DNA of 64,000 nucleotides, from NCBI RefSeq assembly GCF_012317045.1, contig NZ_CP051154.1:496001-560000 (forward strand), written 5' to 3'. The position numbers and the translations under genes were made by a program. Every line of letters starts with the position of its first letter. Position 1 is the first letter of the stretch. Origin of the DNA: Leifsonia sp. PS1209 (lineage in GTDB: Bacteria; Actinomycetota; Actinomycetes; Actinomycetales; Microbacteriaceae). This document shows positions 15,159 to 40,049 of the stretch, piece by piece. Under the pieces are notes generated by a model. The model ran no database searches, had not been told where the DNA came from, and saw only the letters and a program-made list of their open reading frames with translations.

Positions 15159-15174
15159 GCGGTACCCTCGCCAG

Positions 15175-15561
15175 ATGGATCACCCGGAACTGTTCGAAAA
15201 CGGCGACCCGTTCGTCGAACGGATGCGCGCCATCTGCCTCCGCTTCCCCGACGCCGTCGAGGTCCAGACCTGGGGACGCCCCACCTTCCGCGCAGGCAAG
15301 AAAGTCTTCGCCCTCGCCGGAAGCGGCCTCGCGCGCCCATACTCCCTGGTCTTCAAGCCGGACCCGGACGAGGCGAAAGCCTTCCACGAGGACCCTCGCT
15401 TTTTCGTGCCCAAATACTGGGGAGCATCCGGCTGGCTGGGCATCGACATCGACCAGGCCGCCGACGACGCCACCTGGAAAGAGGTCGCCGAACTGATCGA
15501 AACCTCCTACCGCCAGGTGGCGTTGAAGCGCCAATTGGCGGTACTCGACGGTGTCATGTAA
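15175..15561 (+). CDS. MmcQ/YjbR-family protein
   Basis: A 128-residue protein with the DUF419/YjbR fold signature: RMRAICLRFPDAVEVQTWGRPTFRAGKKVFAL in the first half and LIETSYRQVALKRQL at the C-terminus. YjbR proteins have a CyaY-like fold and probably bind DNA; their function is not established. No ribosome site precedes the ATG, but TACCCT lies 7 nt upstream, as in leaderless actinobacterial transcripts. It sits 16 nt after the hydrolase gene. Confidence 0.78.
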   Translation: MDHPELFENGDPFVERMRAICLRFPDAVEVQTWGRPTFRAGKKVFALAGSGLARPYSLVFKPDPDEAKAFHEDPRFFVPKYWGASGWLGIDIDQAADDATWKEVAELIETSYRQVALKRQLAVLDGVM

Positions 15562-25033: not shown

Positions 25034-25070
25034 TTGCATAACGCGCCTGCCTACTGTATACAGAATACAG
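25034..25070 (+). promoter_or_regulatory. Promoter and GntR-type operator of the CUT1 importer
   Basis: TTGCAT (25034-25039) and TATACA (25057-25062) with a 17-bp spacer form a good promoter. The -10 lies inside CTGTATACAGAATACAG (25054-25070), a palindrome with 6-bp arms, CTGTAT-N5-ATACAG. The identical 17 bp recurs at 30914 beside the GntR/FCD gene, which makes that protein the likely repressor. Confidence 0.8.
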
Positions 25071-25135: not shown

Positions 25136-26434
25136 ATGTCTCGCGTCGACTCGAAGATGAGAAGGCTGGTGGCTGTGGGGGCGGCCGTCGCGTTGGCACT
25201 CAGTATGGCCGCGTGTTCAGGATCGGGATCGGGGGGTTCGGGCTCCAAGACTGTCGTCTGGTCCACCTGGGGCACTCCGGAGGAGATCGCCCGCTACAAG
25301 GACTTCGACAACCAGTTCATGAAAGAGCACCCCGACATCAAGGTGGTGCTGCAGCCGGTCGCCGACTACGGCGACTACCACACGAAGCTCCTCGCCCAGC
25401 TCGCGTCCGGCACAGCATCGGATGTGTTCTACATCGGCGACGACAAGATCGGCCAGTTCGTCAACTCGAAGGCGCTGCTGCCTCTCACCGACCTGATGAA
25501 CTCCAGCGCGAGCAAGACCAAGCCGGAGGACTTCGCGCAGGGCCTGTTCGGCGCCACCAAGAAGGGCGACCAGATCTACGCGGCGCCCAACGACTCCAAC
25601 CCGGATGCGCTCTGGTACGACAAGGTCGCGCTGAAGAAGGCCGGCGTCACCGATGACCCGGCCACCCTCGCCGCCGAGGGCAAGTGGACGACAGAGGCAT
25701 ACCTCGACATGAACGAGAAGCTCAAGAAGGCCGGGCTCACCGGATCCATGTTCTGGAACTACTGGTCCACCCACTACAGCTGGATCTCGGCGCAGGGCGG
25801 CAAGGCGTTCGACGAGTCGGGGAAGTTCGTCGCCAACACCGACCAGACCAGCGTCAAGGCGATGGATGTGCTGGCCAAGAACTTCCAGAACGGCACCTTC
25901 GTCGTCGCGGACACCCTCCCGCAGGGGGCGGGAGCCGACAGCGTCTTCGTCACCCACAAGGCGGGCTTCTTCGTGCAGGGCCGCTACACGATCGGCACCG
26001 TGAAGTCGGCGGGCGACCCGGAGAACTACGACGTCGCGCCGTGGCCGACCCCGGACGGCAAGGCCGCGCCGACGGGCACGGCCGTGAGCTACCTCGCCAT
26101 CAACGCCAAGACCAAGAACAAGGCCGCAGCGTTCGAGTTCTGGACCAACTACCTGTCGGCAGCCGGCCAGACCGAGCGGCTGAAGGGCGGAGGCAACGCC
26201 GTCCCGTCGATCAAGGGCGCGGACAAGGTCGTCCTCGACGGATACCCGGAGCACGCCCAGACGCTGCTCGACATGCGCGACATCGGGTTCGAGGACTACG
26301 CGACGGAAGCATCCGTCCCCGGCCTCTCCAGCGACATCAGCGACAAGATGCTCGCGCTCTACGAGGGCAAGGCGTCCACCAAGGCGACCCTCGACGATGT
26401 CGCGAAGATGATCGAAGACAAGACGGGCAAGTAG
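25136..26434 (+). CDS. CUT1 sugar ABC substrate-binding lipoprotein
   Basis: A 432-residue extracellular solute receptor of the maltose/multiple-sugar family. The signal peptide ends in a lipobox around SMAACSGSG; the mature part starts with TVVWSTWGTPEEIARYKDF, a common opening for this class. GAGGTAGGC precedes the ATG, which settles the start. It is followed by two permeases but no ATPase; CUT1 importers in actinobacteria often share a single MsiK-type ATPase encoded elsewhere. Neighbouring glycosidases suggest an oligosaccharide or glycoside ligand. Confidence 0.9.
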   Translation: MSRVDSKMRRLVAVGAAVALALSMAACSGSGSGGSGSKTVVWSTWGTPEEIARYKDFDNQFMKEHPDIKVVLQPVADYGDYHTKLLAQLASGTASDVFYIGDDKIGQFVNSKALLPLTDLMNSSASKTKPEDFAQGLFGATKKGDQIYAAPNDSNPDALWYDKVALKKAGVTDDPATLAAEGKWTTEAYLDMNEKLKKAGLTGSMFWNYWSTHYSWISAQGGKAFDESGKFVANTDQTSVKAMDVLAKNFQNGTFVVADTLPQGAGADSVFVTHKAGFFVQGRYTIGTVKSAGDPENYDVAPWPTPDGKAAPTGTAVSYLAINAKTKNKAAAFEFWTNYLSAAGQTERLKGGGNAVPSIKGADKVVLDGYPEHAQTLLDMRDIGFEDYATEASVPGLSSDISDKMLALYEGKASTKATLDDVAKMIEDKTGK

Positions 26435-26444
26435 GGATCGACGC

Positions 26445-27425
26445 GTGAGTGCAATCCGAGGGTCGCTGACCGAAGCCCCCGACCAGGCGGCGACGGCGAA
26501 ACCCGCAGGCACCGCGCCGGGCGGACTCCGAGGGGAGTCCGCCTGGCGGCGGCGCGACCGGCGCTGGGGCTATGTGTTCGTCGGCCCGCAGCTGATCGGC
26601 ATGGCACTGTTCGTCGTGCTGCCGTTCGCGGCGAGCCTGGTGCTCGCCTTCGCCCAGTGGGACGGTCTCAACGACCTCAGCTGGGTGGGCTTCGACAACT
26701 TCCGCAACCAGCTCTCCGACCCGCTGTTCGGCAGGGCCATCCTCAACACCCTGCTGATCGCCGTGATCACGGTTCCGGTCGGCCTCGGCCTCGCCGTCGT
26801 GATCGCGGTGGCGCTGGAGAAGCTGAAGACGAAGACGCTGTACCTGATCCTGTTCTTCGCGCCTGTGGTCACCTCGTCGGTGGCGGTTGCGATGATCTGG
26901 CAGCAGCTGTTCCGCAAAGACGGCGTGATCAGCGGCTTCATCGCCAGCGTCTTCCACGTGCCCGCCCCGGACTGGCTGGGCGATCCGCACCTCGCGCTCA
27001 TCGCGGTCTGCATCGTCTCCATCTGGTCGTCGCTCGGCCTCAACGTGATCATCTTCCTGGCCGGCCTGCAGAACATCTCTCCCGCCGTGATCGAGGCGGC
27101 GCGCATCGACGGGGCGGGGGCGCTGACGCTGTTCTTCCGCATCCGGATGCCGTTGCTGTCGCCGATCATGTTCTTCTCGTCGGTGATCGCGTTCATCAGT
27201 TCGCTGCAGACGTTCGACACTGTGTTCATCCTCACGGCGAACGCCGGCCCGGACAACGCGACCCGCACGATCGTCTACCACATCTACGATCTCGGCTTCG
27301 GGAAGTTCCAGTTCGGTCCGGCCAGCGCTGCGTCGGTGATCCTGCTGCTGATCACGCTCGTCATCACAGGCATCCAGTTCACGGCGCAGAAGAAGTTCGT
27401 CCACTACGAGGATGGTGCAGCATGA
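26445..27425 (+). CDS. CUT1 sugar ABC permease (MalF type)
   Basis: A 326-residue membrane protein with six predicted helices after a hydrophilic N-terminus of about 40 residues. The cytoplasmic EAA loop reads EAARIDGAGALTLFFRIRMPLL. It starts with a GTG 10 nt after the lipoprotein stop and overlaps the next permease as ATGA. Together the two permeases form the translocation path of the importer. Confidence 0.92.
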   Translation: MSAIRGSLTEAPDQAATAKPAGTAPGGLRGESAWRRRDRRWGYVFVGPQLIGMALFVVLPFAASLVLAFAQWDGLNDLSWVGFDNFRNQLSDPLFGRAILNTLLIAVITVPVGLGLAVVIAVALEKLKTKTLYLILFFAPVVTSSVAVAMIWQQLFRKDGVISGFIASVFHVPAPDWLGDPHLALIAVCIVSIWSSLGLNVIIFLAGLQNISPAVIEAARIDGAGALTLFFRIRMPLLSPIMFFSSVIAFISSLQTFDTVFILTANAGPDNATRTIVYHIYDLGFGKFQFGPASAASVILLLITLVITGIQFTAQKKFVHYEDGAA

Positions 27426-28288
27426 CCGCCGTATCCGGGTCAGCCCGCGAGGGCCGCGCAGGCTCCCGCGTCCGCAAGACGCTCCTCCATGTGGTGCTCG
27501 CCATCGGCGGCATCGCGATGGTGTTCCCGTTCATCTGGATGCTCATCACCTCGTTCAAGACGCTGCCCCAGCTCCTGAACGACCCGCTCAGCTTCCTCCC
27601 CACCCCGTTCACGTTCCAGAACTACGTGGATGCGTGGAACGACGCCCCGTTCGCGCAGGCGTACGTCAACAGCATTTACATCGCCGTGCTGGTCGTCATC
27701 GGCACGCTCATCACCGCCGCCATGGCCGGGTACGCGTTCGCGCGCATCCGGTTCCGCGGCAGCCGCGTGCTGTTCGTGGTGTTCCTGGCGACGCAGATGA
27801 TCCCGATGCAGGTCACGCTCATCCCGTTCTACTTCCTGATGGCGAAGCTGGGCTGGGTGGACTCGCACCTGTCGCTGATCATCCCCGCCGCCCTGGCGAA
27901 CCCGTTCGCGGTGTTCCTGATGCGCCAGTTCGTGCTGTCGCTGCCGAAGGAGCTGGAGGAGGCCGCGCTGGTCGACGGCGCAGGACGGTGGCGCATCTTC
28001 TGGAGCATCATCCTCCCGAACCTGCGCCCGGGCCTCGGAGCGCTCGCGATCATCGTGGCGCTCAGCACCTGGAACAACTTCCTGCTTCCCCTGGTGCTGC
28101 TGAACAGTCAGGATCTCTTCACGGTTCCGCTGCTGCTGCAGAGCTTCCGCGGCCAGTTCGGCTCGATCAACTATGGGCTCATCATGGCGGCGTCGGCTGT
28201 GGCGACCATCCCGATGCTGATCGCGTTCGTCATCGGCCAGCGTCGCATCCTGAACAGCATGGCGGCGTCCGGACTGGGCGGCCGATGA
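27422..28288 (+). CDS. CUT1 sugar ABC permease (MalG type)
   Basis: A 288-residue permease with six helices and the EAA loop EEAALVDGAGRWRIFWSIILP. MVFPFIWMLITSFKT near the N-terminus and TWNNFLLPLVLL are typical of MalG-type partners. Its start overlaps the first permease stop and its own stop overlaps the glycosidase start (both ATGA), so importer and glycosidase are translated together. Confidence 0.92.
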   Translation: MTAVSGSAREGRAGSRVRKTLLHVVLAIGGIAMVFPFIWMLITSFKTLPQLLNDPLSFLPTPFTFQNYVDAWNDAPFAQAYVNSIYIAVLVVIGTLITAAMAGYAFARIRFRGSRVLFVVFLATQMIPMQVTLIPFYFLMAKLGWVDSHLSLIIPAALANPFAVFLMRQFVLSLPKELEEAALVDGAGRWRIFWSIILPNLRPGLGALAIIVALSTWNNFLLPLVLLNSQDLFTVPLLLQSFRGQFGSINYGLIMAASAVATIPMLIAFVIGQRRILNSMAASGLGGR

Positions 28289-30144
28289 GCGCGGCGGCGA
28301 CGACGCGGGATGCGCGGGGCGCGGCGGCACAGGATGCGGCGGCGCTGGATGCTGCGGCACAGGATGCGGCCGACCGTGCCGCTCGGTTCCTCGACCTGGA
28401 GAACGCGCCGTTCACTCTGCCGGGGTCGCGCATCCTGGTGCAGCGGACGGACGGCGGCGTGACCGTGCGGCTGGCCGAGTACGAGCGCAGGCTCGACGAC
28501 TGCGTCGTGGTGCGGGCGCTGCGGGTGTTCGGTGCGGACGGGCGCGTCGCGGAGATCGCGGACGTGCGCCCGGAGAGCATCGCGTTCGACGGGGGAGCGA
28601 CCCTGACCTTCGACGGCCAGCGGGCGCTGAGCCTCGGCGGCGGCTCGCGGTGGACGGTCGAGCTGACCGTGCCGGGCGCGGTCGGTGCGCTCGACGCCGC
28701 TCAGGCAGGCGACGCATCCGGTGCCTGGGCGCCCGGGCTGCCGCCGGCCGGCGAGGCGTCCTGGACGGCGACCGGCGCGGACGACCTGCTGATGCGGGAG
28801 GTGGGCGGGGACACCGTCGTGCGGCTCTCGTTCCCCGGCGGAGACGGCTCGCAACTGCGGATCGCACTGGGCGCATCCACGGCGGAGAACGCGGAGGCTT
28901 CGCACGCTTCGGGTGCCCCGCACGCCTCCGCCCTCGCAGCCACCACATCCGTCTGGGCGGACTGGTTCGCCCGCACACCGCGGGTGCGTGCCGACCTCGC
29001 CGACCTCACGGCGTTCTGCTGGTGGGTGCTCGGCGCCAACATCGTCACCCTGCCCGGTCGCGGCGACGCGCGCGCCGTCGTCCCGTCGAAGATCGGCTAC
29101 GTCGGCCTCTGGCAGTGGGACGCGTACTTCATCGCGGCCGGCCTCCGCCACGGCGCCCCGGAGCTCGCACGCGAGCAGCTCGCCCTCGCGTTCGGCTTCC
29201 CGACACCGGACGGCCAGCTGCCCGACGTCGTTCACGACGACGGCGTGCTGGCGTCGAGCGACGACCTCCCGCCCGGCGACAGGGACACGCTGCGTCGCGC
29301 AGGCTCCTCCATCGCCGACCCGTCGGCGCCGATCCCGCTCACCAAGCCGCCGCTCGCGGCCTGGGCGCTGCGCTCGCTCGAAGGCCTGATCGACGACCCC
29401 GCCTGGTTCGACGAGGCGTGGGAGACGGTCGCGCGCAGCCAGGAGTGGTGGTTCGCGCATTCCGACCTCGACGGAGACGGGATGCCCGAGTACGGCCACC
29501 CGTACTCCTCCGGCCTCGACGACAGCCCAGTGTTCGACGGAGAGCTTCCCGTCGCGTCACCGGACCTCGCGGCGTACCTGATCCTGCAGGACGACCTGCT
29601 CGCATCCCGGGCCAGATCGGTGGGGGACACTGCGGCAGCCGAGCGCCACGCCGCACGAGCCGAGCGCACCCTCGCGCTGCTCGAGGCGATGTGGGACGAC
29701 GCCGCCGGGTTCTTCCGCTCCCGCGGAGCGGGCACACCGCTCTCCGCGGAGACCGCCGTCAGCCTGCTCCCGCTGCTCACCGGCCGCCTGCCCGGGCGCA
29801 TCGTGTCCAGGATGCTCGAAGCTCTCGACGACCCGGACCGGTTCGCGACGCCGTGGGCGATCCCCACGGTCGCCGCCAGGGATGCCGACTTCTCCGCAGA
29901 GCGGATGTGGCGCGGCCCGGTATGGGTCAACATCAACGCCCTCATCGCCGAGGGGCTGGCCGTCTCCGGCCACGCGGACCGCTCCCGCGAGCTGGTCGAG
30001 GCGACGCTGCGCCTGGTGCAGCACGCCGGTGGACCGCACGAGTACTTCAACCCGCTCATCGGAAGGAGGGCCAAGACGGCGACGACGTCGTTCGGCTGGT
30101 CGGCCGCGCTGTGCGTCGACCTCGCGGTGCGCGCTTCGGGCTGA
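28285..30144 (+). CDS. GH63/MGH-like (alpha/alpha)6 glycoside hydrolase
   Basis: A 619-residue protein with no signal peptide, so it acts on imported sugar. After an Ala-rich start and a beta-rich N-domain (about residues 40-210) comes an (alpha/alpha)6-barrel with LWQWDAYF, SSGLDDSPVF (likely general acid Asp), MWRGPVWVNINAL and HEYFNPLIG (likely base Glu). These match the pattern of mannosylglycerate/glucosylglycerate hydrolases and related GH63 enzymes. It is often annotated as amylo-alpha-1,6-glucosidase, for which I see no specific support. It is translationally coupled to the importer, so it probably splits the imported glycoside. Confidence 0.8.
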   Translation: MSAAATTRDARGAAAQDAAALDAAAQDAADRAARFLDLENAPFTLPGSRILVQRTDGGVTVRLAEYERRLDDCVVVRALRVFGADGRVAEIADVRPESIAFDGGATLTFDGQRALSLGGGSRWTVELTVPGAVGALDAAQAGDASGAWAPGLPPAGEASWTATGADDLLMREVGGDTVVRLSFPGGDGSQLRIALGASTAENAEASHASGAPHASALAATTSVWADWFARTPRVRADLADLTAFCWWVLGANIVTLPGRGDARAVVPSKIGYVGLWQWDAYFIAAGLRHGAPELAREQLALAFGFPTPDGQLPDVVHDDGVLASSDDLPPGDRDTLRRAGSSIADPSAPIPLTKPPLAAWALRSLEGLIDDPAWFDEAWETVARSQEWWFAHSDLDGDGMPEYGHPYSSGLDDSPVFDGELPVASPDLAAYLILQDDLLASRARSVGDTAAAERHAARAERTLALLEAMWDDAAGFFRSRGAGTPLSAETAVSLLPLLTGRLPGRIVSRMLEALDDPDRFATPWAIPTVAARDADFSAERMWRGPVWVNINALIAEGLAVSGHADRSRELVEATLRLVQHAGGPHEYFNPLIGRRAKTATTSFGWSAALCVDLAVRASG

Positions 30145-30164: not shown

Positions 30165-30821
30165 TCAGCCCAGCCGCTCCCACGAGATGCCCGCGTCCGC
30201 GAGCAGACGGCGCATCCCATTGGTCCAGTTGGCGGCCAGCGCCTCTTTCGCCGCCGGCAGGTCGCCGGCGACCAAGTAGCGCGCGATGTCTGCGTGTTCG
30301 ATCGCGCTGCGTTCGACCATCACGTCGTCGGACACCAGCAGCGACTCGTAGCGGTGGATGGCGCGGCGCACGCCGGCGATCTCGTCGAGCAGCCGCTGGT
30401 TGGGGCAGGCGCTCAGCATCAGGTTGTGCCACTCGTCGTCGCGGCGGTTGACCAGCGCGTGCTGCGCGACGTCGTCGTTGAACTCGGCGGCGAGGGCGGC
30501 GAGCTGTGTGCCGATTCCGGCCAGCTCGTCGGCCGGGCTGAGGTCGAGCGCGAGGCTTTCCAGCGCCACGATGATGGGGCACAGTTCTTCGAACTCCCGG
30601 GCGCTCAGCGGCACGAACCGGAAGCCTTTGCCGTTCTCCGACTCGATCTGCCCTTCGCTTTCGAGCGCGATCAGGGCCTCCCGCAGCGGCGTGCGCGACA
30701 CGCCGAGCTCGGCGGCGAGCTGCACCTCGTTGATGCTCTCGCCGGGGCGCACGTCGCCGGCGCGCATTCTCGCGATGAGTTCTTCGCGCACCTGGGACCG
30801 CAGGTTCTTGCGCTCGATCAC
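30165..30821 (-). CDS. GntR-family regulator, FadR/FCD type
   Basis: A 218-residue regulator. The winged helix (about residues 8-70) contains ESINEVQLAAELGVSRTPLREALIALESEG, and the all-helical FCD domain with DDEWHNLMLSACPNQRLLDE and a C-terminal His (EHADIARYLVAGD) probably binds a metal-coordinated carboxylate or sugar acid. A perfect AGGAGGT lies 4 nt before the GTG start. It is divergent from the GH42 operon, and the 17-bp operator lies between them. It is the best candidate controller of both the importer and the GH42 operon. Confidence 0.9.
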   Translation of the reverse strand: MIERKNLRSQVREELIARMRAGDVRPGESINEVQLAAELGVSRTPLREALIALESEGQIESENGKGFRFVPLSAREFEELCPIIVALESLALDLSPADELAGIGTQLAALAAEFNDDVAQHALVNRRDDEWHNLMLSACPNQRLLDEIAGVRRAIHRYESLLVSDDVMVERSAIEHADIARYLVAGDLPAAKEALAANWTNGMRRLLADAGISWERLG

Positions 30822-30913: not shown

Positions 30914-30930
30914 CTGTATACAGAATACAG
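30914..30930. promoter_or_regulatory. Second copy of the GntR operator
   Basis: CTGTATACAGAATACAG is identical over 17 bp to the site at 25054-25070. It lies 93 nt from the divergent GntR start and 87 nt before the GH42 start. A possible weak promoter for the plus strand (TTGACC at 30883, TAGCGT at 30906) ends just before it, so bound protein would sit across the start region. Confidence 0.8.
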
Positions 30931-31016: not shown

Positions 31017-33071
31017 GTGACGACCACCTCGCCGCGGACCATCCGCCTCGACGCCCTCGCATACGGCGGCGACTACAACCCCGACCAGTGGCCGGAGAGC
31101 GTCTGGGCAGAGGATGCACGCCTCATGGCCGAGGCCGGGGTCAACCTGGTCACCCTTCCCGTCTTCTCCTGGCCGCTGCTCGAACCGCGTGAGGGCGAGT
31201 ACGACTTCGCCGGCCTCGACCGCGTGATCGACCTGCTCTGGGAGCACGGCATCAGCATCGACCTGGCCACAGCGACCGCCACACCTCCCGCCTGGCTGGT
31301 CCGCGAGCATCCGGAGGTGCTGCCCTGGAACGCCGACGGCGTCCGGCTCGAGTTCGGCTCGCGGCAGACGTACTGCCCCAGCTCTCCGGTGTTCCGGGAT
31401 GCGGCCCTCCGCCTCACGCGCACCCTCGCCGAACGCTACGGCGATCATCCGGCACTCGCGCTCTGGCACGTGTCGAACGAGTACGGCGACCACGTCTCCC
31501 GCTGCTGGTGCCCGGAGTCAGCTCGCCACTTCCGCCGCTGGCTGCGCGACCGCTACGAGACGATCGACGGCCTCAACGCGGCCTGGGGCACCAGCTGCTG
31601 GGGGCAGCACTACCTCGACTTCGACCAGATCGAGCCGCCGCGCACGGCCACCGGCCCGATCAACCCTGCCCAGCTCCTCGACTTCGAGCGCTTCTCCTCC
31701 GACGCGCTGCTCGAACTCTTCCAGTCCGAGATCGACGTGCTGCGCGAGGTCACCCCCGACATCGCGGTCACCACCAACTTCATGAGCCTGTTCCGCGAGC
31801 TCGACTACTGGGACTTCGCGGACGCGGAGGACATCGTCACCGACGACGCCTACCCCGACCCCGCCGATCCGGATGCGCACATCGGCGCCGCCCTCAACTA
31901 CGGCCTCATGCGTTCCCTCAAAGACGGCCGCCCGTGGCTGCTGCTCGAACAGGCGCCGAGCGCGGTGAGCTGGCGCGAGGTCAACGTGCCGAAGGCGCCG
32001 GGTCAGATGCGCGTCGGCAGCATGCAGGCGCTCGCCCACGGCTCGGACGGCGTGCTGTTCTTCCAGTGGCGGCAGGCGAAGTTCGGTCCGGAGAAGTTCC
32101 ACTCCGCGATGCTCGGCCACCGCCGAGAGCGCAGCCGCACCTTCCAGGAGACCAAGGCGCTCGGGGCCGAACTGAAGAAGCTTGCGCCGATCAAGGGCAC
32201 CCGCGTGCGCGCATCCATCGCCCTCGTCGCGGACTGGGACTCCTGGTGGGGCGTCAGCGAACCGGAGTCCCTGCCGTCCGTGCGCCTCGACTGGCTGAAG
32301 GAGGCGCGGGCCTGGCACGCCGCCGCGTACGCGCTCGGCCAGCCGGTGGATGTCGCCCGCGCCGCCGGTCCGTACGGAGAGCACCGCGTGCTGCTCGTCC
32401 CCAACCTCTACGCAACCACCCCCGAGCAGGCGGATGCGCTCTCGGCGTTCGTCGCGGAGGGAGGCCAGCTGGTCGTCGGACCGTTCTCCGGCGTCGTCGA
32501 CCACAGCGAGCAGGTGCACGACGGAGGCGCCCCCGGCCCGCTGCGCGACCTGCTGGGCGTCGAGGTGGACGAGTGGTGGCCGCTGGCGGACGGGCAGACG
32601 GCGTCCGTCGCGTTCGGAGGCGAGCGCCACGGCGTCCGCGTCTGGAGCGAGTGGATCGATGCGGCGGACGGCACAGAGGTGCTCGCCCACTACAGCGACG
32701 GCGACCTCGCCGGGCGTCCGGCCGTCACGCGCCGCGCATCCGGTGCCGGCGCCGCCTGGTACCTGAGCGCCGGTCTCGACAGCGACGGGATGCGCGCCGT
32801 GCTCTCCGGGGTGTTCGCCGCCGCGGGCGTGCCCGTCCCCGCCTCCACCGAGCGCGACACCGACCTCGAGGTCGTCACCCGCACCGACGGCGTCACCGAC
32901 TACACGTTCGTCCTCAACCACGGGCGCCGCACGCTCACCGCTCCGCGCATCCCGGGCGGCCGCGACCTCCTCACCGACGCCGACGCCGATGCCGCCGACG
33001 GGCTGCGGCTCGGGCCCTTCGGCGTCGCCGTCATCGCCCACCCCACCCGCACAGAACCGGCCGGCGCATGA
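31017..33071 (+). CDS. Beta-galactosidase, GH42
   Basis: A 684-residue cytoplasmic beta-galactosidase. GH42 marks are GGDYNPDQWPESVWAEDARLM at the N-terminus, WHVSNEYG (acid/base Glu near residue 151), LLLEQAPSAVSWREVN (nucleophile Glu near 310) and a Cys set (YCPSSP, RCWCPES, TSCWG) that in this family holds zinc. A galactosidase trimer domain and a C-terminal beta domain follow. AAGGAG lies 4 nt before the GTG start. It is first in a five-gene operon and under the shared operator. GH42 enzymes prefer short beta-galactosides or alpha-L-arabinopyranosides. Confidence 0.93.
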   Translation: MTTTSPRTIRLDALAYGGDYNPDQWPESVWAEDARLMAEAGVNLVTLPVFSWPLLEPREGEYDFAGLDRVIDLLWEHGISIDLATATATPPAWLVREHPEVLPWNADGVRLEFGSRQTYCPSSPVFRDAALRLTRTLAERYGDHPALALWHVSNEYGDHVSRCWCPESARHFRRWLRDRYETIDGLNAAWGTSCWGQHYLDFDQIEPPRTATGPINPAQLLDFERFSSDALLELFQSEIDVLREVTPDIAVTTNFMSLFRELDYWDFADAEDIVTDDAYPDPADPDAHIGAALNYGLMRSLKDGRPWLLLEQAPSAVSWREVNVPKAPGQMRVGSMQALAHGSDGVLFFQWRQAKFGPEKFHSAMLGHRRERSRTFQETKALGAELKKLAPIKGTRVRASIALVADWDSWWGVSEPESLPSVRLDWLKEARAWHAAAYALGQPVDVARAAGPYGEHRVLLVPNLYATTPEQADALSAFVAEGGQLVVGPFSGVVDHSEQVHDGGAPGPLRDLLGVEVDEWWPLADGQTASVAFGGERHGVRVWSEWIDAADGTEVLAHYSDGDLAGRPAVTRRASGAGAAWYLSAGLDSDGMRAVLSGVFAAAGVPVPASTERDTDLEVVTRTDGVTDYTFVLNHGRRTLTAPRIPGGRDLLTDADADAADGLRLGPFGVAVIAHPTRTEPAGA

Positions 33072-33115
33072 CGCCGCAGCCATCGTCCCCACCCACCACC
33101 GACCGCGAGGCCACC

Positions 33116-34522
33116 ATGACCCAACCATTCGTCCACCCGTACGTGCCGAACACGGCGCCGGCATCCCGTCAGGCGATGCTCGACGCCGTCGGCGCGGAGT
33201 CCGTCGAGGAGTTCTACGCCGACGTGCCCGCCGACCTGCGCCTGGCCGGCCCGCTCGACCTGCCGGAGCCGCTCGTCGCCGAGCAGGACCTGGTGCGTCA
33301 CGTCGGCGGCCTGCTGCGCCGCAACCGCGCGGTGGAGCCCGGCCGGCTGTTCCTCGGCGCCGGCACGTACCAGCACGCCGTGCCCGCCGTGGTGGACGAG
33401 GTCATCAACCGCAGCGAGTTCCTCACCGCGTACGCCGGAGAGCCGTACGAGGACCACGGCCGGTTCCAGGCGCTGTTCCAGTACCAGTCGCTGATGGGCG
33501 AGCTGCTCAACCAGGATGTGGTCAACGTGCCGACGTACGACGGCTTCCAGGCCGCGGCGACCTCTCTCGCGATGGCGGGCCGCATCACCGGCCGCCGCAC
33601 CGTGCTGCTGGTGAGCGACGCGCATCCGGACAAGCTGTCCAAGGTGCGCGACTACATCGCACCGACCATCGACCTCGTCCTGGTCCCCACCGTCGACGGC
33701 GTCGCCGACGTCGCCGCGGCCACCGGGATGCTCGACGACGCGACGGCAGCGATTTGGATCGAGACCCCGAGCTACACCGGAGCACTCGAGACCGCCGTCG
33801 CCGAACTCTCCGACGCCGCCCACGCGGTCGGAGCCGTCGTCATCGTCGGCACCGACCCGATCGGTCTCGGCATCCTCACCCCGCCCGCCGATCAGGGCGC
33901 GGACATCGTCCACGGCGACATCCAGTCCCTCGGGCTGCACCCCTGGTTCGGCGGAGCGCACGCCGGTTTCATCGCCGTGCACGACGATCCCCGCTTCGTG
34001 ATGGAGCTGCCGTCGCGCCTGTTCGGCCTCGCCTCCACCGACGTGCCGGGCGAGTACGGCTTCGGCGACGTCGCATACGACCGCACCTCCTTCGCCCTCC
34101 GCGAGGAAGGGAAGGAGTGGGTCGGCACCGCCGCAGCGCTCTGGGGCATCGCGGCGGGCGTCTACCTCTCCCTGATGGGCCCGAAGGGCATGGCGGAGGT
34201 CGGAGAGACCGTCCTCGCCCGCACGGCGTACGCCTCCCGCGCCCTCGCCGCCCTTCCCGGCGTGGCGCTCGCCGACGGGGCGACGCACTTCCGCGAGTTC
34301 GTCATCGACCTCCGGGATGCGGCGCTCACCGCACCGGAACTGGTCGCCGCAGGTCGCGCATCCGGATTCGAGCCAGGCCACGCCATCGACGAGACGCACC
34401 TCCTGGTGTGCGTCACAGAGCAGAACACCCAGTCAGACATCGACGACCTCGCCGCCGTGCTCTCCGACGCCCTCGGCGCCGGTGCTGCGGCTGGCGCACA
34501 GAAGAAGGAGCAGAGCGCATGA
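33116..34522 (+). CDS. Divergent GcvPA-like (glycine decarboxylase alpha-like) protein
   Basis: A 468-residue fold-type I PLP-enzyme subunit similar along its length to glycine decarboxylase subunit 1: VPNTAPASRQAMLDAVG at the start, FLGAGTYQHAVPAVVDEVINRSEFLTAY, then LVVPTVDGVADV-like Rossmann segments and HPWFGGAHAGF. In true GcvPA the strand after SEFxTAY reads as a YQ-E-SQG pattern; here (about residues 105-112) it is AGEPYEDHG. No gcvT, gcvH or lpd is nearby. I chose the ATG at 33116, with GCGAGG 5 nt before it; the ATG at 33068 overlaps the GH42 stop. Its reaction is probably not glycine cleavage. Confidence 0.75.
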   Translation: MTQPFVHPYVPNTAPASRQAMLDAVGAESVEEFYADVPADLRLAGPLDLPEPLVAEQDLVRHVGGLLRRNRAVEPGRLFLGAGTYQHAVPAVVDEVINRSEFLTAYAGEPYEDHGRFQALFQYQSLMGELLNQDVVNVPTYDGFQAAATSLAMAGRITGRRTVLLVSDAHPDKLSKVRDYIAPTIDLVLVPTVDGVADVAAATGMLDDATAAIWIETPSYTGALETAVAELSDAAHAVGAVVIVGTDPIGLGILTPPADQGADIVHGDIQSLGLHPWFGGAHAGFIAVHDDPRFVMELPSRLFGLASTDVPGEYGFGDVAYDRTSFALREEGKEWVGTAAALWGIAAGVYLSLMGPKGMAEVGETVLARTAYASRALAALPGVALADGATHFREFVIDLRDAALTAPELVAAGRASGFEPGHAIDETHLLVCVTEQNTQSDIDDLAAVLSDALGAGAAAGAQKKEQSA

Positions 34523-36201
34523 GCCTCCCCATCGCCCCCAAACCGCCCGTGCGGCGTTTCCACCAGGCGCGCTGGGACGAGCCCGTCGTGTTCGAACTGC
34601 ACACGCCGGGCGAGCGCGGAGTGCTCGTCTCCCGCCCGGAGGCCGGCGTGCGCGAGGCCGTCGGCGACGTCGTCGCGGCGCTTCCCGCATCCCTCCGGCG
34701 CAGTGCACCGCCCGCGCTGCCGGAGATCGGGCAGATGCGGGTGCTCAAGCACTACCTGCGCCTCAGCCAGGAGAACCTCGGCGCCGACCTCAACGTCGAC
34801 GTCGGCCAGGGCACCTGCACCATGAAGTACGCGCCGAAGGTCAACGAGGCGATCATCCGGACCCCCGACCTCACCGAGCTGCACCCGCTGCAGGATCCGG
34901 CGAGCGCGCAGGGCATCCTCGAGATCGTCTGGCGCACCGAGCGGATGCTCGCCGAGATCTCGGGAATGAGCCGCGTCTCCCTGCAGACCAGCGGAGGATC
35001 GGAGGCGATCTGGGCCAACATCTCGATGATCCGCGCCTACCACGCCTCCCGCGGCGAGGCCGAGCAGCGGGATGAGGTCATCACCACGATCTTCTCCCAC
35101 CCGTCCAACGCGGCGGCGGCCAAGGCGGCGGGATACCGGGTCATCACCATCCACCCGGATGCGGACGGCTACCCCGACATCGACGCCCTCCGCACCGCGC
35201 TCTCCCCGCGCACCGCGGCGATCATGGTCACCAACCCGGAGGACACGGGCATCTACAACCCGCGCATCCGGGAGTGGGTGGAGCTCGCGCACGGTGTCGG
35301 CGCGCTCGCCTCGTACGACCAGGCCAACGCCAACGGCATCCTCGGCATCACCCGCGCCCGCGACGCCGGATTCGACGTGTGCCACTTCAACCTGCACAAG
35401 ACGTTCGGAACGCCGCACGGCTGCGGCGGCCCCGGCTCGGGAGCGAACGCCGTCTCCGAGGCGCTCGCGCCGTTCCTGCCCGGCCCGGTGGTCGAGCGCG
35501 TCGGCGACCGCTACGTCCTGGATGCCGACCGGCCGCAGTCGATCGGCTCCGTCGCCCCGTTCTACGGCGTCACCCCGAACATCGTGCGCACGTACGCCTG
35601 GATCAGCGCGCTCGGCGCGGAGGGCCTGCGCGCCGTGGCCGAGACGGCGGTGCTGAACAACAACTACCTGATGAAGCGCATCCTCGCGATCCCCGGGGCC
35701 AGCGCGCCGTACGCGACCGGCCGCCGCCGCATCGAGCAGGTGCGGTACTCCTGGCAGGAGCTGTTCGAGGAGACGGGCATCAGCTCCGAGGAGATCGGCG
35801 TCCGCGCCTCCGACTTCGGCATGCACTACTGGACCAGCCACCACCCGTACATCGTTCCGCAGCCGTTCACGCTCGAACCGACGGAGTCGTACTCGATGGC
35901 CGAACTGGACGAGTACGCCAACGTGCTCGCCGAGGTCGCCCGCGAGGCCCGCGAGACGCCGGAGGTGGTGCGCTCGGCGCCGCACAACCAGACCGTGCAC
36001 CACACCCACCACGACGACCTGGACGACCCGGATCGCTGGGCGGTGACCTGGCGGGCGTACCAGCGGAAGTACGCCGGGGCGGGAGAGGGTGCGTTCGCGC
36101 CGTTCTCCGCTCCGTCGTCCGAGGCGGCTGGCGCTGGTCCTGCGACTGGTGCTGCCGCTGGCGCTGCGTCGGCCTCCTCCTCCGACGAGGCTGCTGCGTA
36201 G
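34519..36201 (+). CDS. Divergent GcvPB-like PLP-binding subunit
   Basis: A 560-residue partner of the preceding protein, with its start overlapping (ATGA). The PLP Lys is in HFNLHKTFGTPHG near residue 294, and GTCTMKYAPKVNEAI and HPLQDPASAQG are conserved. Key motifs differ from true P-protein: SLQPAAGAHGE is SLQTSGGSEA (near 153), the HGTNPAS segment is FSHPSNAAAA (near 191-200) and DGANLNA is DQANANG. The substrate pocket is therefore remodelled. The last 30 residues are Ala/Ser-rich. The pair should form a heteromeric PLP enzyme acting on an amino acid or amino-sugar acid; the exact reaction is unknown. Confidence 0.75.
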   Translation: MSLPIAPKPPVRRFHQARWDEPVVFELHTPGERGVLVSRPEAGVREAVGDVVAALPASLRRSAPPALPEIGQMRVLKHYLRLSQENLGADLNVDVGQGTCTMKYAPKVNEAIIRTPDLTELHPLQDPASAQGILEIVWRTERMLAEISGMSRVSLQTSGGSEAIWANISMIRAYHASRGEAEQRDEVITTIFSHPSNAAAAKAAGYRVITIHPDADGYPDIDALRTALSPRTAAIMVTNPEDTGIYNPRIREWVELAHGVGALASYDQANANGILGITRARDAGFDVCHFNLHKTFGTPHGCGGPGSGANAVSEALAPFLPGPVVERVGDRYVLDADRPQSIGSVAPFYGVTPNIVRTYAWISALGAEGLRAVAETAVLNNNYLMKRILAIPGASAPYATGRRRIEQVRYSWQELFEETGISSEEIGVRASDFGMHYWTSHHPYIVPQPFTLEPTESYSMAELDEYANVLAEVAREARETPEVVRSAPHNQTVHHTHHDDLDDPDRWAVTWRAYQRKYAGAGEGAFAPFSAPSSEAAGAGPATGAAAGAASASSSDEAAA

Positions 36202-37440
36202 ATGTCCTCCCTCCGTCAGCTCCGCCCGGCGATCGGGGTGGTCGTGAACCCCGTCGCCGGGATCGGGGGACCGGCCGGCCTCGTCGGCAGCGACGGCGAG
36301 GCGGTGCAGCGCGAGGCCGCCGCGCGCGGTTCGCACGCCCGTGCCGCCGAGCGCGCTGCCGCGGCCCTCGCGGTGCTGGCGGGCGCGCATCCCGGGCTGG
36401 AGGTGCTGACGGCGTCCGGGCCGCTCGGCGAGGATGCGGTGCGCGCCGCCGGTCTCCTCCCGCGCGTCGTCTACGCTCCGGATGCGCGGCGCGGCCAAAC
36501 GGGCGACGGCCTCGTGGGCGTCGGCCTAGCGGGCGACGGCACCACGGGCGACGACACCGCGCGTGCCGTCGCGGCCTTCGTGGCCGATGGCGCCACCCTC
36601 GTGCTGTTCGCGGGTGGAGACGGCACGGCACGGGATGCGGCACGAGGCGCCCCGGCGCACACCGCGCTGCTCGGCATCCCGGCCGGGGTCAAGATGTACT
36701 CCGGCTGCTTCGCCGTCGCTCCCGCCGCAGCGGGCGCGATCGCCGCGGAGTGGCTGACCGCCGGCGGCCTGCCGACGCGCGAGGCGGAAGTCCTCGACCT
36801 TGACGAGGAGCTCCTGCGCGCCGGCCGGCCGGACCCTCGCCTGTTCGCGCTCGTCCGCGTCCCCGTCGCCCGCGAGCGCACCCAGGCACGCAAAGCGCCC
36901 ACCCCCACCAGCGAGGCCGACGCCGTCCGCCGGGCAGCGGCGGGCGCCGTCGCCGCCATGCGGCCGGGCGTGCGCTACCTGCTCGGGCCCGGAGGAACGC
37001 TCGCCGCGGTGTCGCGCGAACTGGGCGTGCCGGCCACCCCGCTCGGCGTCGACATCGTGCAGGACGGAATGCTCGTCGCACGCGACGTGTCGGAGCAGCA
37101 GGCCATCGCATCCATTGCCGGACACCCCGCGCAGGCCGTCGTGACCGTGATCGGCGGCCAGGGCTTCCTCCTCGGGCGCGGCAATCAGCAGCTCTCGCCC
37201 GCCGTGCTCGACGCCATCGGCTCCGACCCTCTGCTCGCCGGCCCCCTGATGGTTGTCGCGACCGAACAGAAACTCATCGACCTCGCCGGACGACCGCTCC
37301 TGGTCGACACCGGCGACACCAGCCTCGACGCACGCCTCGCCGGTCACCTCCGGGTGACCACCGGTCCGTCGTCGTCGAGCATCTACCCTGTCAGTGCCGC
37401 CAGTGCGGCCACCACCGAAGGAGCGCACACATGCGTCTAG
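36202..37440 (+). CDS. ATP-NAD/AcoX-type kinase-like protein
   Basis: A 412-residue protein of the NAD-kinase/AcoX superfamily. It opens with AIGVVVNPVAGIGGPAGLVGSD and carries the diagnostic GGDGTARD near residue 137, then GIPAGVKMYSGCFAV, QDGMLVARD and GGQGFLLGRGNQQLSP, which are all AcoX features. AcoX proteins are found in catabolic operons such as acetoin clusters, where their function is not settled. It begins directly at the GcvPB-like stop and overlaps the SDR start by 10 nt. It could phosphorylate NAD(H) for the SDR or phosphorylate a pathway intermediate. Confidence 0.75.
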   Translation: MSSLRQLRPAIGVVVNPVAGIGGPAGLVGSDGEAVQREAAARGSHARAAERAAAALAVLAGAHPGLEVLTASGPLGEDAVRAAGLLPRVVYAPDARRGQTGDGLVGVGLAGDGTTGDDTARAVAAFVADGATLVLFAGGDGTARDAARGAPAHTALLGIPAGVKMYSGCFAVAPAAAGAIAAEWLTAGGLPTREAEVLDLDEELLRAGRPDPRLFALVRVPVARERTQARKAPTPTSEADAVRRAAAGAVAAMRPGVRYLLGPGGTLAAVSRELGVPATPLGVDIVQDGMLVARDVSEQQAIASIAGHPAQAVVTVIGGQGFLLGRGNQQLSPAVLDAIGSDPLLAGPLMVVATEQKLIDLAGRPLLVDTGDTSLDARLAGHLRVTTGPSSSSIYPVSAASAATTEGAHTCV

Positions 37441-38189
37441 CCGACAAGTCCGCCATCGTCACCGGAGGAGCCGGCGGCATCGGTCGCGCCACCTCCCTCG
37501 CCTTCGCGGCGGAGGGCGCGCGCGTCGCCGTCGTGGATGTCGCGCCCGGCGCGGCGGAGAAAGTCGCGGAGGAGATCCGCGCGGCGGGAGGCACAGCCAT
37601 CGCCCTCACAGCAGACGTGTCGAACGAGTCGGACATCGAGCGGGTCGTCGCGGACACCGTCTCCGTGTTCGGGGGCGTCGACGTCGTCTTCAACAACGCG
37701 GGCATCATCCGCCGCACCACTGCGGTCGAGACCACGGCCGACGAGTGGGACCGCGTCTTCGGCGTCAACGTCAAAGGCATCTTCCTGATGTGCAAGCACG
37801 TCGTGCCCGTCATGGCGGCCAACGGCGGAGGATCCATCGTCAACACCGGCTCCGGATGGGGGCTCAAGGGAGGAGCGCAGGCCATCTCGTACTGCGCATC
37901 CAAGGGTGCGGTCGTCAACATGACCCGCGCGCTCGCCATCGACCACGGCCCGCAGGGCATCCGCGTCAACTCGGTGAACCCTGGGGACGTCAACACCGGG
38001 ATGCTCCGCGACGAGGCCCGCCAGCTCGGCCAGGAGGCCGGGTCGTTCCTCGCGGAAGCCGCCGACCGCCCGCTGCAGCGCATGGGGGAGCCGCAGGAGA
38101 TCGCCGCTGCCGTCGTGTGGCTCGCCTCCGACGAGTCCTCGTACGTGACCGGTTCCGCGCTCGTCGTGGACGGTGGAGGCATCGCCTAG
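37431..38189 (+). CDS. Short-chain dehydrogenase/reductase
   Basis: A 252-residue classical SDR with TGGAGGIGRA (cofactor loop, residues 12-21), NNAG, the catalytic Ser in NTGSGWG and YCASK (Tyr/Lys). VVDV after the second strand, with Asp, suggests NAD(H) over NADP(H). GAAGGAG lies 8 nt before the ATG. It is the last gene of the GH42/GcvP-like operon and overlaps the AcoX-like gene. It probably oxidises a sugar or hydroxy-acid intermediate of the pathway. Confidence 0.9.
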   Translation: MRLADKSAIVTGGAGGIGRATSLAFAAEGARVAVVDVAPGAAEKVAEEIRAAGGTAIALTADVSNESDIERVVADTVSVFGGVDVVFNNAGIIRRTTAVETTADEWDRVFGVNVKGIFLMCKHVVPVMAANGGGSIVNTGSGWGLKGGAQAISYCASKGAVVNMTRALAIDHGPQGIRVNSVNPGDVNTGMLRDEARQLGQEAGSFLAEAADRPLQRMGEPQEIAAAVVWLASDESSYVTGSALVVDGGGIA

Positions 38190-38317
38190 CGAAGCCTCCG
38201 TTCGCGTGCAATAGGAGCGGGAAAAATGCGACGCCGCAAATTTCAGGTGCGGTGTCACGAATGTCGGAGGCTTCTGCCACAATCTTCAGGTACCGAAAGC
38301 CACCCCTGGGGGAATCC

Positions 38318-40048
38318 TTGATCCTGCTCCGTCTTACCCTGCGTCACGCGCGCCCATATGTGTGGGGGATCGTGGGGGTCGTGGTCCTGCAACTGCTGTC
38401 CACGATCGCCGCGCTCTACCTGCCCAGTCTCAACGCCCAGATCGTCGACAAGGGCGTCGTCACCGGAGACACCGACTTCATCTGGAACACCGGCATGACG
38501 ATGCTCGTCGTCTGCCTCGCGCAGGTGCTGACCGCCGTCGGCGGCATCTATTTCGGCGCCAAGGTGTCGATGGCGGTCGGCCGCGACCTGCGTCGTGAGG
38601 TCTACCGCAAGGTCGATTCCCTCGACGCCCTCGACGTCGGCCGCTGGGGCACGGCGACGCTCATCACCCGCAACACGAACGACGTGCAGCAGGTGCAGAT
38701 GCTCGTGCTGATGACGCTCAACTTCATGGTGTCAACGCCGATCATGTGCATCGGCGGCATCATCATGGCCCTGCGCGAAGACATCGGGCTGTCCTGGCTG
38801 GTCTGGGTGTCCGTTCCTGTCCTGTTCGTCGTGGTGGGCATCCTGGTCGTGCTCCTGCTTCCGCTGTTCCGCGAGATGCAGGAGCGCATCGACAAGGTCA
38901 ACGGCGTGCTGCGCGAGCAGATCGTCGGCATCCGCGTCATCCGGGCGTTCGTCCGCGAGCCGTTCGAGTCGGAGCGCTACGCGGAGGCCAACCTGGCACT
39001 CACCAAGGTGTCGGTGCGGGTCGGCAACATCTTCGTCCTGATGTTCCCCGTCATCATGGTCATCCTGCACCTCGCGACGGCCGCCGTCCTCTGGTTCGGC
39101 GGACAGCGCGTGGATGCCGGTCAGATGCAGGTGGGCTCGCTCACCGCGTTCCTGCAATACCTGCTGATGATCCTCACCGCGGTCATGATGGGCGTGTTCA
39201 TGGTGATGATGATCCCGCGCGCCGTCGTCTGCGCCGGGCGCATCGACGAGGTGCTGTCGACCGAGGCGTCCGACGCCGGGCGAGCAGGGGATGCGCCGCT
39301 GCCGTCCTCCGGCAGGGTCGAGTTCCGGGGTGTCACCTTCGGATACCCCGGTGCGGAAAAGCCGGTGCTGAGCGACATCGACTTCGTCGCCGAGCAGGGC
39401 AAGATGACGGCCATCGTCGGATCGACCGGCGCAGGCAAGACCACGCTGGTCAACCTCGTGCCCAACCTCTACACGGCGCAGCAGGGCACCGTCACCATCG
39501 GAGGGGTGCGGGTCGACTCGCTCACCAGGGCGCAGCTCGCCGGCGTGCTCGGGCTCGTCCCGCAGCGTCCGTACCTCTTCTCCGGCACGATCGCATCGAA
39601 CCTCCGGTTCGGCCGGCCCGACGCCACGGACGAGGAGCTGTGGGAGGCGCTCCGCGTCGCCCAGGCCGAAGACTTCGTGCTGGCCAAGGAGGGCGGGCTC
39701 GACGCGCGCATCTCCCAGGGCGGCACCAACGTCTCCGGCGGTCAGCGCCAGCGACTCTGCATCGCCAGGGCGCTGGTCTCGCAGCCGCAGGTGTACCTCT
39801 TCGACGACTCGTTCTCGGCCCTCGACGTCGCGACGGACGCCCGCCTTCGCGCGGCCCTCGCCGACGCGACGAGAGACGCAGCGGTGATCGTGGTCGCACA
39901 GCGCGTGTCGACCATCCGCGAGGCGGACACCATCATCGTCCTCGACGACGGCCGCATCGTCGGTCGCGGAACCCATGACGAACTCCTCGAGACGAGCGAG
40001 ACCTACCGCGAGATCGTCGAATCGCAGCTGAGCCTGGAGGTGGCCTGA
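38318..40048 (+). CDS. ABC exporter half, degenerate-site subunit
   Basis: A 576-residue half transporter with six membrane helices followed by an ATPase domain: Walker A GSTGAGKTT, signature VSGGQRQRL and Walker B VYLFDDSFSALD. The residue after the Walker B Asp is Asp, not the catalytic Glu, which marks the inactive site of heterodimeric exporters (TM287/TM288 or BmrCD type). The TTG at 38318, with GGGGGA 4 nt before it, gives the usual N-terminus LILLRLTLRHARPY; the ATG at 38261 has no ribosome site. Partner is the next gene. Confidence 0.87.
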   Translation: MILLRLTLRHARPYVWGIVGVVVLQLLSTIAALYLPSLNAQIVDKGVVTGDTDFIWNTGMTMLVVCLAQVLTAVGGIYFGAKVSMAVGRDLRREVYRKVDSLDALDVGRWGTATLITRNTNDVQQVQMLVLMTLNFMVSTPIMCIGGIIMALREDIGLSWLVWVSVPVLFVVVGILVVLLLPLFREMQERIDKVNGVLREQIVGIRVIRAFVREPFESERYAEANLALTKVSVRVGNIFVLMFPVIMVILHLATAAVLWFGGQRVDAGQMQVGSLTAFLQYLLMILTAVMMGVFMVMMIPRAVVCAGRIDEVLSTEASDAGRAGDAPLPSSGRVEFRGVTFGYPGAEKPVLSDIDFVAEQGKMTAIVGSTGAGKTTLVNLVPNLYTAQQGTVTIGGVRVDSLTRAQLAGVLGLVPQRPYLFSGTIASNLRFGRPDATDEELWEALRVAQAEDFVLAKEGGLDARISQGGTNVSGGQRQRLCIARALVSQPQVYLFDDSFSALDVATDARLRAALADATRDAAVIVVAQRVSTIREADTIIVLDDGRIVGRGTHDELLETSETYREIVESQLSLEVA

Positions 40049-40049
40049 G

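Follow-up and report, generated by a model that had tools for sequence, protein, structure and literature searches.

Why do two genes annotated as subunits of glycine dehydrogenase lie in an operon of sugar hydrolases? This question is raised by a 64,000-nucleotide stretch of Leifsonia sp. PS1209 (assembly GCF_012317045.1, contig NZ_CP051154.1, positions 496,001-560,000, forward strand), referred to in its full length as the window and contained in a genome of 4.09 Mb in one contig. Here, a GH42 glycosidase gene is followed by genes encoding PA, a GcvPA-like alpha subunit, PB, a GcvPB-like beta subunit that binds pyridoxal phosphate (PLP), an AcoX/ATP-NAD-kinase-like protein (AcoX) and a short-chain dehydrogenase/reductase (SDR). 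To our knowledge, P-protein is known only as a glycine decarboxylase. Judging from the sequence, we consider it probable (about 0.72) that PA/PB has left glycine cleavage and serves a pathway for an amino-bearing glycoside.

Relation of PA and PB to the P-protein of glycine cleavage

With the NCBIfam models PA scores 429.2 bits (GcvPA cut-off 364) and PB 560.4 bits (GcvPB cut-off 441), and the pair is consequently annotated as glycine dehydrogenase. GcvPA/GcvPB is likewise the name carried by most NCBI-named relatives. NCBIfam also names the SDR proteins, and the AcoX-like protein has no NCBIfam family. PA/PB resembles the two-subunit P-protein (GcvPA/GcvPB; T. thermophilus 1wyt) in homology over most of its length, in the order of the subunits, in the PLP lysine and in the cofactor residues. 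In contrast, it differs by forming its own clade, by a deleted active-site Tyr, by the loss of the motif that faces the H-protein, by new pocket residues, and by having AcoX nearby instead of gcvT and gcvH. As far as sequence can tell, PA/PB fails several defining tests of a working glycine cleavage P-protein.

An earlier note on the window had stated that PB keeps the PLP lysine and that three segments are changed. Alignment to canonical proteins bears this out: PB carries HFNLHKTFGTPHG at the PLP lysine and SLQTSGGSEA, HPSNAAA and DQANANG in place of the canonical segments. The PLP residues K294, H194 and D267 are kept in all 77 divergent and all 52 canonical PB rows, and N291 and H293 are also common to both groups; PA/PB should work as a PLP enzyme. 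Three substitutions are fixed in the clade (77/77 rows), namely Q268 and P195, where canonical proteins have Gly, and D242, where they have Thr. Moreover, G273 (canonical Ala), E406/Q407 (His/Glu), W438 (Pro), H442 (Phe) and I164 (Glu) are each present in 74 to 76 of the 77 rows, I164 in 75. Two of the three segment changes are fixed in the clade, the SGGSEA change only partly; the SGGSEA of the window is atypical, as position 162 is Ala in 59 rows and Glu (E162) in six. The predicted structure of PB had a mean predicted local distance difference test (pLDDT) score of 64.7, with most of residues 1-125 and 490-560 below 50, and was left unused.

In PA, the loss of the YQ-E-SQG segment that the note had described proved correct, since PA has YAG-EPYEDHG, shorter by one residue, where canonical proteins have YTPYQPEVSQG. 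Of the two Tyr in YTPYQ, the second, equivalent to human Tyr164, is deleted in 84 of 84 PA rows and present in all 52 canonical ones. Passages of PMC7259800 name Tyr161, Tyr164, Gly618, Thr894 and Trp897 as active-site residues, and Gln366, Ile372, Arg373 and Lys376 as residues of the H-protein interface. We transferred the human residue numbers via phmmer alignments to 6i33, using an offset of 43 that agrees with Tyr161, Tyr164, Gln366 and Thr894. KATSNIC corresponds to EGKEWVG in PA, and SNIC is mostly EWVG throughout the clade when compared with the 52 canonical PA rows. At the position of human Lys376, 80 of the 84 rows have Glu or Asp, as opposed to Lys or Arg in 52/52 canonical rows, and at that of Ile372, 79 have Ala. 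The Arg373 column is variable (Leu 29, His 22, Val 15, Ile 9, Gln 5, Arg 1, and others). NPxDxG, SHxP, the Tyr deletion and the loss of SNIC occur in plasmid rows and basal Chloroflexota rows alike; both groups differ from the window group at other pocket residues, and their substrates may therefore differ.

Phylogenetic analysis places the divergent proteins apart. In an earlier tree of 56 PB rows, the 28 divergent rows formed one group (SH-like approximate likelihood ratio test (SH-aLRT) 100, stem 1.45 changes per column). A second tree was built from a chosen subset of 44 rows, comprising 22 divergent (the window, 14 chosen close rows and seven from plasmids) and 22 canonical rows (14 two-subunit and eight fused, drawn from 29 and 23, respectively). 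Here, 22 of 22 divergent rows share one branch (bootstrap 100, SH-aLRT 100, stem 1.23), which emerges inside the two-subunit canonical lineage, indicating derivation from P-protein. The note would have been refuted by a place inside the normal GcvPA/GcvPB clade with conserved pocket residues; the tree and the changed pocket residues show the opposite. The clade extends to Chloroflexota, Alphaproteobacteria and one haloarchaeon, and Leifsonia is the main source of the nearest PB proteins. Among plasmids, tblastn yielded 22 records, eight at 44-50% identity, of which seven entered the 44-row tree, and 14 at about 40% or less. Carriers are scattered and uncommon: 8 of 301 Chloroflexota (at least 53% identity, one partial, centre included), 4 of 158 in one Chloroflexota class, and 3 of 396 Actinomycetota with the window genome counted.

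PA/PB is not the only P-protein of the genome, the other case that would have refuted the note, since a canonical fused P-protein, a single GcvH match and GcvT beside them are encoded elsewhere. The lack of gcvT and gcvH near the pair was likewise corroborated, as the GcvH and GcvT of the window genome gave no tblastn match (E≤1e-6) in 87 related loci. All 34 carrier genomes searched contain the divergent alpha subunit, whole or partial; a full-strength canonical P-protein is present in 31 of them, fragments in two, and none in one, a metagenome bin. Taken together, the clade is real and conserved and, although annotated as glycine dehydrogenase, most likely is not one. A clade that spans several phyla with the cofactor residues but without the partner motifs would mean that gcvPA and gcvPB are misnamed in the carrier genomes, which would mislead metabolic models of one-carbon metabolism.

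Conserved neighbourhood and shared palindrome

The surroundings of PA/PB were compared in 80 named loci, the best 80 of the matches listed in the scan, 51 of which have full flanks (at least 21.4 kb). For the gene-set test all four core genes had to lie inside the locus, and any close SDR could count as the SDR. PA is located directly upstream of PB in 80/80 loci, one copy (L057) being broken by a stop. The set PA-PB-AcoX-SDR is complete in 49 of the 51 full-flank loci, AcoX being present in 50 and a GntR gene in 47. A GH42 gene was found in 46, a GH63-clan enzyme in 43, both in 42 and neither in four; the conserved GH42-GcvPA-GcvPB-AcoX-SDR neighbourhood for which the note had proposed to search does exist. 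In two Chloroflexota loci (L064, L068), an MGH1-like enzyme is accompanied by a GH2 beta-galactosidase. In 18 further loci, comprising 11 genomic ones, some of which are short, and seven plasmids, AcoX lies near PA/PB in 14. Of the five genes, only PA-PB-AcoX make up the wider core, and several relatives lack a glycosidase in the vicinity.

In addition, the window contains two identical copies of the 17-bp palindrome CTGTATACAGAATACAG, which end 66 positions before the start of a solute-binding protein (SBP) gene and 87 positions before that of GH42; 0.01 copies would be expected by chance in the window. These are the only two perfect copies in the genome, which has one further site with a single mismatch, and the control pattern is not found at all. 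With at most one mismatch the palindrome is present in 43 of the 80 loci, none of them from Chloroflexota, and it follows the genes in loci with a different gene order (L021, L033, L038, L058). In 21 other carrier genomes we counted 32 palindrome sites as opposed to 12 control sites; 22 of the 32 are located at the PA/PB locus, among them all six perfect ones. Because of the position of the palindrome, we infer that it is bound by the GntR regulator encoded beside it. The unit is larger than the five genes, as it adds the divergent GntR gene and the SBP-permease-permease-glycosidase operon (25136-30144). The transporter, both glycosidases, PA, PB, AcoX and SDR are taken to be one regulon, presumably under the control of GntR. 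Thus, the view of the note that the five proteins form one catabolic pathway with a new substrate holds in part: it is favoured by the remodelled pair outside the P-protein clade and by the neighbourhood with glycosidases, whereas the unit is larger and the core narrower than supposed.

Proposed pathway, its substrate and the alternatives

We propose that PA and PB constitute a two-subunit PLP enzyme derived from the bacterial two-subunit P-protein, which would no longer dock the H-protein and would act on another amino compound together with AcoX. GntR would control two operons through the identical 17-bp operators. The ABC transporter may import a small glycoside, from which the GH63-clan enzyme and GH42, acting intracellularly, would strip the sugars. 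The amino-bearing aglycone, possibly an amino or hydroxy-amino acid, would then be broken down by AcoX, PA/PB and SDR. As the most likely chemistry, AcoX, presumed to belong to the NAD/diacylglycerol-kinase fold group, would phosphorylate a hydroxyl, PA/PB would form the aldimine and cleave or eliminate the activated group, and SDR would oxidise or reduce the carbonyl or alcohol product. The catalytic residues S141, Y154, K158 and N113 of SDR are kept at at least 95% of 74 rows.

AcoX of acetoin operons, a protein of the ATP-NAD kinase family, has NAD_kinase and NAD_kinase_C domains and a GGDGT motif. The AcoX-like protein of the window shares both domains and the motif, as seen with Pfam and in the alignment, but its apparent partner is a PLP enzyme and not acetoin dehydrogenase. 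Compared with solved structures, its single sequence gave no match and its profile only weak local ones, and Foldseek with the predicted model returned nothing at E≤0.001. In a second look with Foldseek, unrelated binding proteins scored as high as kinases, and no kinase subgroup can therefore be chosen. A passage of PMC9676059 calls AcoX a predicted NAD kinase and cites a study of an unknown protein. Because AcoX is so closely paired with PA/PB, its function can be tested directly, and the palindrome common to both operons defines a regulon for growth tests. In Peptoclostridium (L192:7617-9693), the genes for AcoX and a class I/II PLP aminotransferase overlap, and an SDR is encoded close by; the annotation of this stretch includes no PA/PB, and we give no weight to this one case.

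What could the substrate be? The neighbouring genes together point to an amino compound. In Arthrobacter (L038:16484-21578) a perfect operator precedes genes for an amidohydrolase, an amino-acid-type ABC transporter and a second SDR. The loci of Rhodococcus (L187) and Gemmobacter (L186) encode amino-acid permeases, SDRs and acyl-CoA synthetase-type proteins, the former also an ArgE/DapE deacylase and the latter also an amine oxidase. Two further loci (L151, L161) contain a peptide-type solute-binding protein, an M20 deacylase and a muconate-cycloisomerase-like protein, and the haloarchaeal one (L190) an M20 protein and a dipeptide ABC transporter. Mainly dehydrogenases, other oxidoreductases and other transporters are found in Sphingomonas (L185), Paracoccus (L188) and Roseicitreum (L191).

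Glc-alpha1,2-Gal on the hydroxylysine of collagen is described in a passage of PMC8626586. By analogy, the beta-galactosidase beside a GH63-clan enzyme recalls this arrangement of Glc-alpha1,2-Gal on hydroxylysine. In E. coli, the cluster ebgR-ebgA-ebgC-ygjI-ygjJ-ygjK likewise combines a beta-galactosidase, a GH63 glucosidase and an amino-acid permease (ygjI), but no PA, PB, AcoX or SDR is annotated there. YgjK reportedly prefers Glc-alpha1,2-Gal. The GH63-clan enzyme of Actinomadura (L058) matches YgjK with 479 bits at 36% identity and PRK10137 with 615.6 bits, just under the cut-off of 625, whereas that of the window reaches 69.6 bits with PRK10137. The latter is not a YgjK orthologue, and hydroxylysine is for this reason only a candidate; we regard (glucosyl)galactosyl-hydroxylysine as a tentative and rather doubtful choice of substrate.

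In mammals, hydroxylysine is processed by hydroxylysine kinase and phosphohydroxylysine phospholyase. The proposed logic, a kinase followed by a PLP enzyme acting on an amino compound, would be shared, whereas the protein families differ from those of the window. Among the eight window proteins scanned with Pfam, neither an APH-type kinase nor a class III PLP phospholyase was found. An Acidimicrobiia bin (L018:5135-6127) has an APH-type kinase gene after PA-PB-AcoX-SDR, the product of which matches the first part of PRK06148, a family that we take to hold hydroxylysine and ethanolamine kinases, with 203 bits. Sphingolipid breakdown, considered by analogy with its kinase and lyase, found no support, matches to sphingosine lyase being weak. 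It is a speculative and unlikely generalisation that PA-PB-AcoX constitutes an unrecognised system, in which a PLP lyase of the P-protein fold would act on a substrate activated by the AcoX kinase and not on a lipoyl carrier, degrading a glycosylated hydroxy-amino acid, for example (glucosyl)galactosyl-hydroxylysine, here and other amino compounds elsewhere. If true, this system would give AcoX a biochemical role. By the listed titles and abstract starts of openly licensed PMC literature under the terms used, neither a P-protein relative with AcoX nor a bacterial glucosylgalactosyl-hydroxylysine pathway has been described.

Several observations weigh against the assignment of PA/PB to an amino-bearing glycoside pathway. 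Both subunits exceed the curated NCBIfam cut-offs for GcvPA and GcvPB, and the H-protein interface given in PMC7259800 is, in the passage concerned, that of a docking model. The 80 loci are biased to close relatives, being the best 80 of the matches listed. Neither type of glycosidase is present in four of the 51 full-flank loci (L036, L038, L057, L083), and AcoX does not adjoin PA/PB in four of the 18 further loci (L148, L149, L163, L190). The palindrome is absent from 37 of the 80 loci, including every Chloroflexota locus, and from the PA/PB locus in seven of the 21 other carrier genomes. Beyond Arthrobacter, the amino-type neighbours belong to relatives at about 44-55% identity, the substrate of which may differ. 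The GH63-clan enzyme of the window and YgjK share no more than 27% identity across 200 residues. Finally, no collagen-specific genes were seen among the part of the neighbours that was scanned, and no search was aimed at such genes.

Which other explanations account for the locus? PA/PB could be an amino-acid decarboxylase that has no need of H-protein and converts the amino-acid aglycone to an amine, while SDR oxidises a hydroxyl and AcoX only supplies NADP. Decarboxylation is the chemistry of P-protein, the PLP lysine, the stacking His and the Asp are kept, AcoX has the GGDGT kinase motif, and the Gemmobacter cluster includes an amine oxidase gene. However, a mere supplier of NADP need not be tied so closely to PA/PB as AcoX is in 50 of 51 loci, and SDR, by its D36, presumably uses NAD as cofactor; we consider this explanation possible, if unlikely. 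The regulon could also combine two unrelated functions, with the ABC transporter, the GH63-clan enzyme and GH42 devoted to galactoside use and PA/PB/AcoX/SDR to a separate pathway that responds to the same inducing signal, in keeping with the occurrence of the core without glycosidases in some loci and of other transporters in relatives. Against this stand the identical palindrome shared by both halves with the regulator gene between them, and the joining of the core by a beta-galactosidase and a GH63-clan enzyme in Actinomycetota and, with GH2 replacing GH42, in two Chloroflexota loci; such a combination appears unlikely to us.

A retro-aldolase or another C-C lyase, which would split a beta-hydroxy amino acid into glycine and an aldehyde converted by SDR or other dehydrogenases, is a poor prospect: it leaves no role for AcoX, the clade does not conserve the SGGSEA of the window, and threonine aldolases encoded by a single gene already perform such chemistry. 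In its favour, glycine is already bound in aldimine form by this scaffold, PB has weak hidden Markov model (HMM) matches to cysteine desulfurases and other fold-type-I enzymes, and alcohol dehydrogenases (L185) and acyl-CoA synthetases (L186, L187) occur near relatives. That PA/PB remains a glycine decarboxylase, as a second isoform working with the GcvH of the genome and merely placed in a sugar operon, accords with the NCBIfam equivalog cut-offs and the presence of GcvH, but is highly improbable and was rejected on the tree with its long stem, on the motifs (Tyr deleted in 84/84 rows, altered H-facing motif) and on genome content, with a canonical gcvT-gcvH-gcvP present and no GcvH or GcvT match in the 87 loci.

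Gene arrangement and further neighbours

The features of the two operons are compiled in Table 1. The coordinates confirm the arrangement of five plus-strand genes with small gaps or overlaps from GH42 to SDR: PB overlaps PA by 4 bases, the AcoX-like gene abuts PB, and SDR overlaps the AcoX-like gene by 10 bases. An alternative ATG of PA at 33068 would create a 4-base overlap with the GH42 stop. By Pfam, the five products belong to GH42 (three GH42 domains matched), GDC-P (PA), PLP-fold domains with GcvP2_C (PB), ATP-NAD kinase and SDR.

Table 1. Genes and palindromes of the proposed regulon (positions within the window)
Feature	Position	Strand	Remarks
17-bp palindrome, CTGTAT-N5-ATACAG	25054..25070	none	putative GntR operator; just upstream of SBP
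Extracellular solute-binding protein, SBP_bac_1	25136..26434	+	
ABC transporter permease 1, BPD_transp_1	26445..27425	+	
ABC transporter permease 2, BPD_transp_1	27422..28288	+	
MGH1-like (GH63-clan) glycoside hydrolase	28285..30144	+	distantly related to YgjK and to mannosyl-/glucosylglycerate hydrolases
GntR/FCD transcriptional regulator	30165..30821	-	
17-bp palindrome, second identical copy	30914..30930	none	between GntR and GH42
GH42 beta-galactosidase-type glycosidase	31017..33071	+	500.5 bits, Pfam
PA, GcvPA-like alpha subunit	33116..34522	+	Tyr deleted, H-protein-facing motif altered
PB, GcvPB-like PLP-binding beta subunit	34519..36201	+	PLP lysine K294
AcoX/ATP-NAD-kinase-like protein	36202..37440	+	GGDGT at 138-142
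Classical SDR dehydrogenase	37431..38189	+	S141, Y154, K158, N113

Downstream of SDR, positions 38261-42191 of the window encode two ABC exporter-type proteins (ABC_membrane and ABC_tran). This pair was rejected as a member of the unit, as a match to ABC1 was found in only 2 of the 80 loci.

Individual relatives have further genes at the core. In one Chloroflexota locus a Gfo/Idh/MocA oxidoreductase gene lies between PB and AcoX (L162:2668-3717), and in another a homologue of tryptophanase/tyrosine phenol-lyase is encoded near PA/PB (L149:2179-3558). A second SDR stands beside the core in Chloroflexota (L063:11567-12322; L053:12724-13500 and 14434-15186) and in Arthrobacter (L038:20918-21578), the proteins of L038 and L063 being 43% identical.

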